This document shows positions 41,038 to 45,528 of a stretch of DNA of 64,000 bases, piece after piece. Position 1 is the stretch's first letter. Every line of letters begins with the position of its first letter. Both the position numbers and the translations under genes were made by a program. Source of the stretch: a candidate division Zixibacteria bacterium HGW-Zixibacteria-1 (GTDB lineage Bacteria; Zixibacteria; MSB-5A5; GN15; PGXB01); the NCBI GenBank assembly GCA_002838945.1, contig PGXB01000002.1:151474-215473 (forward strand). Reading direction: 5' to 3'. The notes beneath the pieces are model-generated. The model saw only the letters and a list, made by a program, of their open reading frames with translations, ran no database searches and was not told the DNA's origin.

Positions 41038-41712
41038 ATGATAGAAAACTTGAATAGATATTTCGACCATTCGATCCTTACTCCCGAGACGGATCAAAAA
41101 GCGATTGAAAAACTCTGCCGTGAAGCCAAAAAATACGCATTTTATGGAATCGCCATAAATCCATATTGGGTCAAATATGCCAAAAAACAATTGTCCGGTT
41201 CTGATATTAAAATCGTTTCGGTTTCCGGTTTTCCGCTTTCGGCCAACACGACCGATATTAAAGTGGCCGAAGCGGTAAAGGGAGTCGATGACGGGGCGGA
41301 TGAGATCGACATGGTGGCCAATGTTGGCCTGATGGTTTCGGGGAAATTCAACAAAGTTGAAGATGAGATATATCAAATTAAGAAGGCGCTCCCTGGCCAT
41401 ATTATCTTAAAAGTAATCATCGAGGCTCCCAAACTCTCCGCGGTCGCCCAGGTCGAGGCGGTCAAGGCCATAATCAATGCCGGAGCCGATTTTGTTAAAA
41501 CCGCCACCGGATTTTTTGGCGGGGCAACCGTCAAAATGGTCGAACGTCTGAAACGGACCGCCAACGGTCAGATCAAAGTGAAGGCTTCCGGAGGTATCAG
41601 AACTCTGGCTGATGCCATGGAATTGATAAGAGCCGGCGCCGATCGGATCGGCTCGTCGGCCTCGGTCGCCATTATGGAGGAATCCTTCGCCGCAAAAGCG
41701 GCTTCGAAGTAA
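41038..41712 (+). CDS. deoC: Deoxyribose-phosphate aldolase
   Basis: DeoC cleaves 2-deoxyribose-5-phosphate to acetaldehyde and glyceraldehyde-3-phosphate. Its 224 residues hold the Schiff-base lysine K154 (FVKTATGF), the proton-relay lysine K182 (VKASGGI) and D91 (EIDMV). All are in family positions. It is the first gene of an operon with its own promoter. The next genes (a small zinc-ribbon-like protein, an archaemetzincin-like protein and a helicase) have no obvious link to nucleoside breakdown. Confidence 0.95.
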   Translation: MIENLNRYFDHSILTPETDQKAIEKLCREAKKYAFYGIAINPYWVKYAKKQLSGSDIKIVSVSGFPLSANTTDIKVAEAVKGVDDGADEIDMVANVGLMVSGKFNKVEDEIYQIKKALPGHIILKVIIEAPKLSAVAQVEAVKAIINAGADFVKTATGFFGGATVKMVERLKRTANGQIKVKASGGIRTLADAMELIRAGADRIGSSASVAIMEESFAAKAASK

Positions 41713-41718
41713 ACCGGA

Positions 41719-41916
41719 ATGGCCGAGAAAGAAAAAAATGATACAATTGGCCGGCCGCATATCGGCATCGTTTTTAAGTGTTGCCATATTTACTCCAGGA
41801 TATATCTTAACAAAAAGGGCGATGCCTTTGTCGGCTGGTGCCCCAGGTGTTCGGCAAAACTGGAAATCAAAGTGTCGCCGACAGGATCGAAAAGAAGATT
41901 TTTTACTGCTGAATAG
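41719..41916 (+). CDS. Small zinc-ribbon-like protein
   Basis: A 65-residue protein with a CC pair (KCCH, near 21-22) and CPRC (near 42-45), separated by about 18 residues, which could form a zinc ribbon. It is packed between deoC (six bases upstream) and the archaemetzincin-like gene (three bases downstream), so it is likely real despite a weak ribosome-binding site. Function unknown. The close spacing suggests a shared mRNA with the two neighbours. Confidence 0.55.
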   Translation: MAEKEKNDTIGRPHIGIVFKCCHIYSRIYLNKKGDAFVGWCPRCSAKLEIKVSPTGSKRRFFTAE

Positions 41917-41919
41917 ATA

Positions 41920-42462
41920 ATGCTTCAGAAAAAATCAAAAATAGTCGTCGTGCCGCTGGGAGATGTTGATTTCATGATGGTCAACCGCCTGGCCACCTCG
42001 ATCGGTCCCGTCTTCGGACGGTCGGTTGATATTCTCAAGGGTATGAAGGTCCCCGAAGAAGCTTTTAACGTCATTCGCAATCAACATTATGGAAGCATCA
42101 TCCTTGCCAAACTGGAGCGGGTCAAAGCCAACCCCAAAGAACTTGTGATGGGCATTTGTGAGGAAGATCTTTATCTTCCCGATGAAACCTACATTCTCGG
42201 CAATTCCGATATCGTGCTGGGTACGGCGGTGATCTCGCTCTTTCGTATCCGCCAGGAGTTTTATGGACTGCCCGAGGATGATATGAAAATTTACACCCGC
42301 CTCTTCAAGCAGGCGGTGCATCAGGTGGCCCATTTGACCGGAATGACCAGTTGCCGAAACCCGAGATGTGTTAATTACTACAGCCAGGATATGTTCGACA
42401 TCGACGCCAAGGGCGAAAAATTCTGCGATATTTGCAAACGCCAGCTTGTGGACAAGAAATAA
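41920..42462 (+). CDS. Archaemetzincin-like protein with altered catalytic motif
   Basis: Archaemetzincins are zinc proteases with HExxHxxGxxHC followed by structural-zinc cysteines. This 180-residue protein keeps the family pattern: H134, H138, G141, C145, C150, C169 and C172 all align. However, the general-base Glu is Gln (HQVAH, Q135) and the third zinc-ligand His is Ser (S144). These two changes should abolish proteolysis, so it may be a pseudoprotease. The structural-zinc Cys are intact. The gene sits in the deoC operon, three bases after the zinc-ribbon gene and six before the helicase. Length is close to the family norm. Confidence 0.82.
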   Translation: MLQKKSKIVVVPLGDVDFMMVNRLATSIGPVFGRSVDILKGMKVPEEAFNVIRNQHYGSIILAKLERVKANPKELVMGICEEDLYLPDETYILGNSDIVLGTAVISLFRIRQEFYGLPEDDMKIYTRLFKQAVHQVAHLTGMTSCRNPRCVNYYSQDMFDIDAKGEKFCDICKRQLVDKK

Positions 42463-42468
42463 AACGAT

Positions 42469-44742
42469 ATGAACCTGATCCAGTTGCTTGAATCGTTCAA
42501 AACCGACCGCGCCATCGCGCCCAACATCGCCAAATGGCAGGTCTTCCCGCCCCGCGCAGGAGTCTATGAAGATTATCCGGATTACCTGGACGAAAAACTG
42601 GTTTCGGTGATGAAAAGGCGCGGCATCCAAAAATTATATTCGCACCAGCGCGAAGCGGTCGATTCGATTCATGCCGGCCATAACACCGTCATTGTCACCC
42701 CCACCGCCTCCGGTAAAACCCTCTGCTACAATCTCCCGGTCCTCGACAGCATCATGAAAAACCATTCCGACCGCGCCATGTACCTCTTCCCCACCAAAGC
42801 GCTTTCACAGGATCAGTTGGCCGAACTGACCGGCTTGATCGACACGCTTGACGTCGATATCAAGACTTATACTTTCGACGGCGACACGCCGCAGACCGCC
42901 CGGCGATTGATCCGCTCCGCCGGACATATTGTCGTGACCAACCCCGATATGCTTCATGCCGGCATCCTGCCGCACCATACCAAGTGGATCAAGCTGTTCG
43001 AGAATTTGAAATTTGTCGTCATCGATGAAATCCATCATTACCGCGGAATTTTCGGCTCGCATCTGGCCAATGTCGTCCGCCGCCTGCGGCGGGTGTGCAA
43101 CTTTTACGGCTCCGATCCCATCTTCATCTGTTCATCCGCCACCATCGCCAACCCGGCCGAACTGGCCGAACGAATCACCGGCAAAAAAGTCAATCTGGTG
43201 GACAAAAACGGCGCCCCGACCGGCGAAAAACACTTTATCATATATAACCCTCCGGTCATCAACAAACAGCTCGGTATCCGAAAATCGGCGCTGGGCGAGT
43301 CATTTAATCTGGCCGAGCGGTTTATTCGCGAAAGAATCCAGACCATTGTCTTTGCCCAATACCGCCTTCAGGTGGAAGTGCTCTTATCATACCTTCGCGA
43401 GAAATTCAAAGAGCCTTTCGGGAAAAATATCAAGGTGGCCGGCTATCGCGGCGGCTACCTTCCAAATCAAAGGCGCGATATCGAGCAGGGCCTCCGCAGC
43501 GGCGCCATCACCGGCGTCGTCTCGACCAACGCCCTGGAACTGGGCATCGATATCGGGGCGCTCGATGTTTCAATTATCTGCGGCTATCCCGGATCGATCT
43601 CCTCGGTCTGGCAGCAGGCCGGACGGGCCGGACGGCGCGCCGATGTTTCGGTAACGATTTTCGTCGCCAACAGTTCGGCCATCAACCAGTTTCTGGCCAA
43701 GGACCCGACGTATCTTTTCAAGAAGACCCCGGAGATGGGCATTATCGACCCCGACAACCTGATCATCTCGGCCAATCATATCAAATGCGCCAGCTTTGAA
43801 CTGCCGCTATCCGTCGGCGAAAAATTCCGCCATGACGGCACCGAGGAAATCCTCGATTACCTCGAATCGCAAAAAGTGGTCCGCCAGGCCGGCGGCAAAT
43901 ATCACTGGGCCTCCGAAATCTACCCGGCCCAGCAGGTCTCATTGCGGTCGGCTTCGCCCGAGAATTTCGTCATCCTCAACCAGACCGACAACAACCGCGT
44001 CATCGGCGAGGTCGATTATTATTCGGCGCCGATCTTTTTGCACCCGGAAGCGATTTATTTGCATGATGCCGACCAGTACCAGGTGACCGAACTGGACTGG
44101 GAAGGACGCAAAGCTTACGTCAAAGAAACCGATGTCGATTATTACACCGATGCCGAAACCAAAACCGATCTGAAAGTGCTCTCCGTCACCGATGAAAAGG
44201 CCAAATATGAGGCCCGGCTGTCATGGGGCGAAGTGACCGTGACTTCGGTGACCGTGCTCTATAAAAAGATCAAGTTCCACACGCATGAAAATGTCGGCTG
44301 GGGCAAGATCGAACTGCCGGAGTTGGAGCTGCATACTAATTCCTATTGGTATTCCTTCCCCGGCGACATCCGCTTCAAGATTAATCTCGATGGCGAGCAG
44401 TTCGGCGGCGCTTTGCGCGGTGTCGCCAACATCCTCGGCAAGATTGCACCGTTGTGGATGATGTGTGACCCGCATGACCTCCGCTCGATTTCACAGGTGC
44501 GCTCGCCGTTCACCGAACTACCGACTATTTATATCTATGAGAATATCCCCGACGGCGTCGGTTATTCCGAAAAGCTGTTCAATATTTCCGATGATTTATT
44601 CCGCGCCTGTCTCGACCAGGTCGAGAACTGTCCTTGCCAGAGCGGCTGCCCGTCATGTGTCGGCCCCGAGATGGAAGTCGGCGAATCCGGCAAATCCGGC
44701 ACTGTCAAATTACTGAAGTGGATGCTGGGGATGGGGGTATAG
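42469..44742 (+). CDS. DEAD/DEAH helicase of the MrfA/YprA type
   Basis: The 757-residue superfamily 2 helicase has Walker A TPTASGKT (77-84), DEIH (186-189), SSATI, and QQAGRAGRR in the second RecA-like domain. The C-terminal third is a DUF1998-like zinc domain with CPCQSGCPSC near residue 725. In B. subtilis this class (MrfA) unwinds DNA with 3'-5' polarity in mitomycin-damage repair. The usual MrfB nuclease is not adjacent. DUF1998 helicases are also parts of phage defence systems such as DISARM, but the single-protein DEAD-DUF1998 form fits repair better. It ends only 6 bases before the TIR gene. Confidence 0.88.
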   Translation: MNLIQLLESFKTDRAIAPNIAKWQVFPPRAGVYEDYPDYLDEKLVSVMKRRGIQKLYSHQREAVDSIHAGHNTVIVTPTASGKTLCYNLPVLDSIMKNHSDRAMYLFPTKALSQDQLAELTGLIDTLDVDIKTYTFDGDTPQTARRLIRSAGHIVVTNPDMLHAGILPHHTKWIKLFENLKFVVIDEIHHYRGIFGSHLANVVRRLRRVCNFYGSDPIFICSSATIANPAELAERITGKKVNLVDKNGAPTGEKHFIIYNPPVINKQLGIRKSALGESFNLAERFIRERIQTIVFAQYRLQVEVLLSYLREKFKEPFGKNIKVAGYRGGYLPNQRRDIEQGLRSGAITGVVSTNALELGIDIGALDVSIICGYPGSISSVWQQAGRAGRRADVSVTIFVANSSAINQFLAKDPTYLFKKTPEMGIIDPDNLIISANHIKCASFELPLSVGEKFRHDGTEEILDYLESQKVVRQAGGKYHWASEIYPAQQVSLRSASPENFVILNQTDNNRVIGEVDYYSAPIFLHPEAIYLHDADQYQVTELDWEGRKAYVKETDVDYYTDAETKTDLKVLSVTDEKAKYEARLSWGEVTVTSVTVLYKKIKFHTHENVGWGKIELPELELHTNSYWYSFPGDIRFKINLDGEQFGGALRGVANILGKIAPLWMMCDPHDLRSISQVRSPFTELPTIYIYENIPDGVGYSEKLFNISDDLFRACLDQVENCPCQSGCPSCVGPEMEVGESGKSGTVKLLKWMLGMGV

Positions 44743-44748
44743 CATTTG

Positions 44749-45528
44749 ATGAAAAAGGATAAATTTAAATTCGATTTTGCGATTTCTTACGCTGGTGAAG
44801 ATGTGGGATTGGTAAGGGATATTTGCAAGCTACTACTTGATAACGGCGCAAAGATTTACTTCGATAGATCCAATAAGCCATTTCTTGTTGGAAAAAAATT
44901 GTCTAGTGAGACCACGCAAATCTATGGTCCGTTATCCTGCTTTTGTGTCCCTATAATATCGAAACACTATGTTAATAAATATTGGACAAAAAGAGAATAT
45001 GTCAGTGCTTTAAAAGAAGAAGAAACAAGGAAAAGTGAATTTATATTACCGATACTTCTGGATGATGTAAATTTTGACCAATTGGCTATTGATAAAATAT
45101 ATATAGATTTACGAAAAGAAGGTATATTTGACACAGTCGATATTCTTATTGCTAAATTAAGTCAGTTACCATCCAGTAAGCCGATCACAGGAATAACGAC
45201 ATGGGTTGCAACTTTTGGAATACATGTCAATGACTTTGCGGCTAGTTATGATAGGCCACCCAATGCACCTTATAAGTATTATGAATTATGTGATTGGCTT
45301 GAGAATGATCTTATAAAACGATTGGAGAAATCTAGGATTAAAAGATTTGCATTGACAGAAGCGTCCGAAAGAAATGGTGAGACATTATCTATAAGAGTCG
45401 CCTTTCGTTGGGATCCCTCGAAAGAAGTTTTGGATTTTGGTGACGTTGCTTGGTGGGACGTCCTGGAAATAATTGAATATGAAAAGGTATATTCGAACAG
45501 CAGCAATCCATTTAATAGTCAAGATTAA
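44749..45528 (+). CDS. TIR-domain protein with unassigned C-terminal domain
   Basis: Residues 1-130 are a TIR domain: FDFAISYAGEDVGLVRDI at the first strand and helix, YFDRS after strand B, GPLSCFCVPIIS, and the WTKREY segment with the putative catalytic Glu at E83. Bacterial TIR proteins often degrade or cyclise NAD in phage defence. The C-terminal 110 residues (from about 150) carry no motif I can name; aromatic and charged, they may sense a trigger. Base composition changes sharply at its start to AT-rich, unlike the helicase, a sign of acquisition. The ATG at 44749 lies 6 bases after the helicase stop; GGGGG in the helicase end could serve as ribosome-binding site. I chose it over a TTG one codon before. 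Confidence 0.82.
   Translation: MKKDKFKFDFAISYAGEDVGLVRDICKLLLDNGAKIYFDRSNKPFLVGKKLSSETTQIYGPLSCFCVPIISKHYVNKYWTKREYVSALKEEETRKSEFILPILLDDVNFDQLAIDKIYIDLRKEGIFDTVDILIAKLSQLPSSKPITGITTWVATFGIHVNDFAASYDRPPNAPYKYYELCDWLENDLIKRLEKSRIKRFALTEASERNGETLSIRVAFRWDPSKEVLDFGDVAWWDVLEIIEYEKVYSNSSNPFNSQD

Follow-up and report, generated by a model that had tools for sequence, protein, structure and literature searches.

Does a protein that keeps the fold of a zinc peptidase, and has lost residues of its catalytic site, still act as an enzyme, and if not, for what is it retained? The question is raised by a 180-residue open reading frame in the window, as we call the whole 64,000-nucleotide stretch analysed here, which comes from the genome of a Ca. 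Zixibacteria bacterium (G000; 3.8 Mb, 96.67% complete). The features to which the argument refers are the following.

41038-41712, + strand: deoC (deoxyribose-phosphate aldolase), which opens the conserved gene run; TIGR00126 219.4 bits, cut-off 117.3
41719-41916, + strand: small zinc-ribbon-like gene (CC-x18-CPxC), 65 residues, 3 bp upstream of the archaemetzincin-like gene
41920-42462, + strand: archaemetzincin-like predicted pseudoprotease, 180 residues; open reading frame, PF07998 match, AlphaFold2 model and match to PDB 4axq
42319-42354, + strand: degenerate catalytic motif H134-Q-V-A-H138-L-T-G141-M-T-S144-C145, by direct reading
42352-42435, + strand: the four structural Cys codons, from C145 through C150 and C169 to C172, invariant inside and outside the clade described below
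42469-44742, + strand: YprA/MrfA-family DEAH helicase with MZB, 757 residues, 6 bp downstream of the archaemetzincin-like gene
44746-45528, + strand: TIR-domain protein gene, directly behind the helicase; TIR_2 52.2 bits, PADLOC candidate PDC-S66 52 bits

An earlier note had described the gene as archaemetzincin-like, stripped of catalytic residues and placed between a zinc-ribbon gene and an MrfA-like helicase, and the flanking open reading frames confirm that placement. The window protein scored 56.4 bits against PF07998 in a Pfam profile search (cut-off 24.4), so the homology is not a matter of chance, and a profile search of the whole genome returned this gene as its only PF07998 match. 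The NCBIfam archaemetzincin model NF033823 gave 135.9 bits, slightly below its cut-off of 145. Peptidases of family M54 carry HExxHxxGxxHC, whereas the window protein reads HQxxHxxGxxSC: codons 134, 135, 138 and 144 are CAT, CAG, CAT and AGT, and the note was right that the catalytic Glu is replaced by Gln and the third zinc-ligand His by Ser, with G141 and C145 in place. The Met of the Met-turn (CxM) is also gone, replaced by Asn (N152). The four structural Cys follow the family pattern C-x4-C...C-x2-C, again as had been read.

AlphaFold2 was run on 62 window and locus sequences and returned a confident model of the window protein (pLDDT 91.7, pTM 0.86). Foldseek placed 3lmc, 3zvs, 2x7m and 4axq at the top of its matches (TM-scores 0.80-0.92), and VIA-align gave Z scores of 23.8-25.5 against solved archaemetzincins versus at most 14.5 against other metzincins, the best match being PDB 4axq (Z 25.5, rmsd 1.7 Å, 163 residues aligned). 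The predicted structure has the metzincin fold of M54. Set beside the known archaemetzincins (MEROPS M54 / PF07998; AfAmzA, 4axq/3zvs; MkAmzA, 2x7m; MlAmzA, 3lmc), the protein resembles them in its whole fold, its Cys4 structural zinc site and its sequence profile, and differs in lacking the catalytic Glu, the third zinc-ligand His and the Met-turn Met. That this fold is inactive is a nearly certain prediction.

A local mutation, a sequencing error or a decaying relic could be proposed for such a motif, and nothing was found in favour of any of the three. Matches occur in 121 of the 132 phylum genomes, including 77 of the 78 best (most complete) assemblies; none of the matches listed from these 132 genomes has an internal stop, and dN/dS within the clade described below is 0.005-0.084 (9 of 24 pairs, those where both methods worked). 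Close relatives with an intact motif, which the earlier note had named as the sign of such an accident, did not turn up: the same-genus genome G001 reads HQHGS at the five motif positions, and none of the 14 sequences of family code f1 is intact. This explanation is already refuted and keeps next to no probability.

To place the loss, we used a maximum-likelihood tree of 151 distinct sequences, with the five motif columns (134, 135, 138, 141 and 144) removed and with no CarG sequence included. It contains a clade of 106 distinct sequences, clade Z, with support 100/99, made up of 101 degenerate, 3 intact and 2 truncated members, and every degenerate sequence of the tree lies inside it. The intact members are L113 and L131 (f12) and L128 (f8); the truncated ones, L141 and L178, have no motif region. 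All 45 sequences outside clade Z have HExxH..H intact, as do all 35 archaemetzincin loci from other lineages, of which 29 are new and 6 repeat proteins already in the tree (34 were scored by script and L227 by eye, the script pattern having missed its Cys). The tree omits L176 (a 47-residue fragment), the masked L170 and L157 and the 73-residue L061 reading frame, and L059 entered it trimmed to its last 200 residues. By position in the tree, or by at least 57% identity for sequences outside it, we placed a clade-Z member in 115 phylum genomes, G060 and G100 being counted through fragments left out of the tree; by our placement, six genomes (G029, G084, G098, G104, G105 and G113) have outside-clade forms only.

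Two observations on single records belong here. L027 (titled Calditrichaeota) and L007 (titled Ignavibacterium) encode clade-Z proteins very close to those of Zixibacteria, L027 nesting inside them, so these metagenome-assembled genomes are probably misnamed or contaminated. L152 (G070), L154 (G084) and L163 (G113) each have two different intact outside-clade archaemetzincin genes, about 9-11 kb apart; the paired genes are close in the tree across two family codes (f4 and f15), a pattern that points to a segment moved not long ago or to contigs assigned to the wrong bin.

Within clade Z the catalytic site has decayed by degrees. At least one of H134, E135, H138 and H144 is lost in 101 of the 104 untruncated sequences; in 8 of these the third His alone is gone, and in the other 93 the loss includes the Glu, H134 or H138. 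One of the four residues is missing in 10 sequences, two in 53, three in 20 and all four in 18. The ten single losses comprise the 8 just mentioned, which keep HExxH and carry Asn in place of the third His (f15-f17), and 2 without the Glu (f14). The states found vary widely (HQ..H..E/D/S, HR, RV, KH, LQ and others), and since the site drifts among so many, no alternative active-site motif is conserved. The HQxxH/S form, whose conservation in relatives the earlier note had left to be checked, is indeed present in G001 but proved to be just one local state of this drifting site. The deeper forks inside the clade are weakly supported (83/62 and 94/54). Parsimony puts the fewest changes between intact and degenerate at 3, and an AU test did not reject a single clade of all degenerate sequences (p 0.229). 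However, f14 has all three His without the Glu, whereas f15 and f17 have the Glu without the third His, which, barring reversal, implies an intact common ancestor and at least two routes of decay.

Might the protein nevertheless still be an enzyme, the remaining His pair and a substitute ligand holding a metal for some other chemistry, as claimed for mammalian AMZ1? In PMC3427221, AMZ1 is described with its third zinc-ligand His replaced by Asn, Ser or Thr. The 8 sequences with Asn at that position share this state and could retain metal binding. Of the 101 degenerate sequences, 73 still have H134 and 68 still have H138. The window protein also has its third His replaced. AMZ1, however, keeps HExxH, which the window protein does not; here the Glu, the third His and the Met-turn Met have all changed. 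Moreover, the residue found at position 144 may be E, S, N, D, A, Y, Q or H, none of them favoured as a ligand, and the 18 sequences without any of the four catalytic residues still have an invariant Cys4 site. We therefore consider continued catalysis of another kind improbable.

In contrast to the catalytic site, other parts of the protein are held tightly. The four Cys are invariant in all 101 degenerate and all 45 outside sequences, and D83, S106, R127 and D162 are kept in both sets. Ten further residues (K7, P45, E47, K64, E66, E74, E82, Y85, D97 and N147) reach 90% conservation or more in the degenerate sequences and stay below 70% outside. The three intact clade members have nearly all of these ten, indicating that the new constraint arose with the clade, before or apart from the loss of catalysis. 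A retained fold together with newly conserved, clade-specific residues points to a new function, not simply to retention. With motif loss across the clade, purifying selection and a model that matches solved archaemetzincins, the earlier reading of a conserved fold predicted to be inactive holds up well, and the gene is very probably a pseudoprotease under selection.

A precedent for such a protein is CarG of Myxococcus xanthus, which, according to PMC3427221, likewise has HQxxH, is proteolytically inactive and requires its four Cys; CarG is required together with CarD and binds it, as stated in PMC4374960. The window protein shares with CarG the bacterial archaemetzincin fold, HQxxH, the kept Cys4 and, by prediction, inactivity. 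It differs in having lost the third His as well and in its zinc-ribbon and MrfA-helicase neighbours. Could it then be a transcription co-regulator of the same type, binding a CarD-family RNA-polymerase-binding protein? A CarD_TRCF profile search found no protein of CarD/CdnL size in the 132 phylum genomes. The 122 matches, in 121 genomes (the other 11 have none), all fall in open frames of at least 588 residues, which marks them as Mfd-like, and the sole match in the genome of the window lies in an Mfd-like reading frame too. NF033824 (non-proteolytic archaemetzincin-like protein), which from its name we take to be the CarG family, gave the window protein 101.3 bits, short of its equivalog cut-off of 250 and less than the general archaemetzincin model gave; among the 395 genomes of the genome group of L051, 147 have a match to it and none exceeds the cut-off. 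A CarD partnership is thus largely refuted, and a CarG-type role is very improbable for the window protein.

Clade Z is real as a phylum-wide lineage of predicted pseudoproteases, dead archaemetzincins whose likeness to CarG does not demonstrate descent from it. The parts consulted of PMC3427221, PMC4374960, PMC12458937, PMC11194089 and PMC4681839 contain no description of it, subscription papers and the NCBIfam description page lying outside that scope. Literature searches joining archaemetzincin with 'non-proteolytic', or Zixibacteria with zinc ribbon, gave no match. Since the CarD route fails, we use CarG as a guide to what the fold can do and turn to the gene neighbourhood for the likely partner.

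Within the taxonomic order, the genes run deoC, zinc ribbon, archaemetzincin-like gene, helicase, with deoC conserved upstream in most members of that order. Counting sequences with enough flanking DNA (L059 excluded), a zinc ribbon lies directly upstream, within 450 bp, in 82 of 100 clade-Z cases versus 0 of 43 outside, and 65 of 96 versus 0 of 43 have a helicase downstream at no more than 700 bp (Fisher p 2e-22 and 4e-16, values that ignore relatedness). The zinc ribbon is adjacent in f1, f2, f4, f5, f9, f10 and f15-f19. An adjacent helicase occurs in f1, f2, f4-f9, f18 and f19 but not in f10, f12-f15 and f17, and in f16 the helicase gene is some 1.4 kb away. The TIR gene behind the helicase has no relative in the loci scanned, which gives it the look of variable cargo inserted where the rest of the site is conserved. 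A defence system was considered and set aside: PADLOC gave no family for the archaemetzincin-like protein or the zinc ribbon, and its best rows for the helicase were partial matches to other helicases.

The helicase itself is well defined. It aligns with Bacillus subtilis YprA/MrfA (6znp) at 891 bits over residues 17-749, contains the Pfam domains MZB, DEAD and Helicase_C, and has the SF2 core, winged helix and MZB (DUF1998) that characterise MrfA/YprA. Contig C9 of the same genome carries a gene for an MrfB-like exonuclease with TPR-like repeats, so the MrfAB pair is present. The resemblance to the MrfAB (YprAB) mitomycin repair pair of B. subtilis therefore consists of an adjacent full-length MrfA homologue and an MrfB-like gene elsewhere in the genome; a difference is that the main text of the YprA-family survey PMC12458937 names no metzincin, metalloprote- or peptidase. 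It has been speculated that MrfAB repair involves a further, unidentified protein (PMC11194089).

Across 46 loci, distances between archaemetzincin-like proteins correlate with those between helicases (r 0.81, and 0.73 when deoC is controlled for, in a comparison without a neutral-gene control). The correlation with zinc-ribbon distances is lower (r 0.445; partial 0.09 given the helicase), the zinc ribbon being too short for a fair comparison.

The small zinc-ribbon protein could instead be the real partner on its own, the two forming a two-protein unit with the helicase a syntenic bystander. It is the tightest neighbour, as the counts above show. All 81 untruncated sequences with an adjacent zinc ribbon have a degenerate motif, and neither of the two intact clade members with enough flank has such a neighbour. 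In 8 loci of f5, f9 and f10, moreover, the zinc-ribbon stop and the archaemetzincin-like start overlap as ATGA. On the other side, a fused zinc-ribbon/archaemetzincin chain was predicted at pTM 0.73 versus 0.86 for the archaemetzincin-like protein alone, both domains folding without confident docking. The zinc ribbon is missing, among the matches listed, from f6, f7, f8, f12, f13 and f14, although degenerate archaemetzincins occur in some of these, and the nine regions of other phyla that contain it have no archaemetzincin nearby. We regard a partnership restricted to the zinc ribbon as unlikely, if worth keeping in mind.

The zinc-ribbon reading frame matched no Pfam family above cut-off. It is present in 95 of the 132 phylum genomes, two of the 95 marginally; in G016, it sits with deoC on one contig and the archaemetzincin-like gene on another. 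Of 386 genomes searched, about 250 lie outside the phylum once its 132 are subtracted, and 10 matching ones are listed among them (9 strong, 1 marginal); the regions read around the nine strong matches (L249-L257) contain no archaemetzincin or helicase, and a Pfam scan of nine neighbours revealed no common theme. The CC-x18-CPxC mini zinc ribbon is thus a small family that also exists beyond the phylum. In one f19 genome the gene (G126:C23:901-1071) has an in-frame TGA and is a pseudogene or an error. Readthrough from the zinc ribbon into the archaemetzincin-like gene was rejected, because just 38 of 84 loci have both genes in the same frame and all three stop codons are used, leaving no readthrough signal.

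A protein that has lost its cutting residues, keeps its fold and is encoded beside zinc-ribbon and helicase genes has probably become a partner protein that does not cut. We think it probable that the archaemetzincin-like protein acts as an adaptor rather than as another enzyme. Going by gene neighbourhood, its likely partner is the MrfA helicase or the zinc-ribbon companion of that helicase, and the helicase pathway as the process served is a tentative assignment that falls a little short of an even chance. The helicase adjacency could also be plain synteny, as deoC is conserved there too. In the proposed mechanism, the Cys4 zinc site would hold an archaemetzincin fold whose catalytic zinc site has decayed, and selection would now act on other parts of the protein. 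It would most likely serve as a non-catalytic, protein-binding adaptor in a module with the co-encoded YprA/MrfA helicase. The process may be akin to MrfAB-type DNA repair, and the small zinc-ribbon protein could be a second accessory. Because the zinc ribbon did not dock and the distance correlation had no neutral control, we infer the helicase-adaptor step rather than assert it; the reading as a whole, a neofunctionalised pseudoprotease serving as a non-catalytic adaptor in an MrfA-helicase-linked module, stands at about even chances.

A bolder version would have an archaemetzincin become genomically tied to the MrfA helicase, gain E47, K64, E66, E74, D97 and N147 while still intact (as in f8 and f12, with helicase adjacency in f8), and then lose its site along two or more routes; the outcome would be a new class of pseudoprotease adaptor in bacterial DNA repair that does not descend from CarG. 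We hold this to be possible, though on balance somewhat unlikely. If the link to the helicase is true, an accessory would be added to the MrfA family. Among inactive bacterial archaemetzincins, CarG alone had an established role in the literature that we met, and clade Z is a further lineage of forms predicted to be inactive. Because a single phylum contains every stage between an intact and a fully degenerate site, natural f8/f12 and f1 proteins lend themselves to comparison for the change of function. The clade also bears on annotation: NF033823 (cut-off 145) passes the degenerate members L127 (HQ; 172.6 bits) and L111 (TQRQH; 157.4 bits), so that automatic annotation would name these motif-less proteins Zn-dependent metalloproteases.
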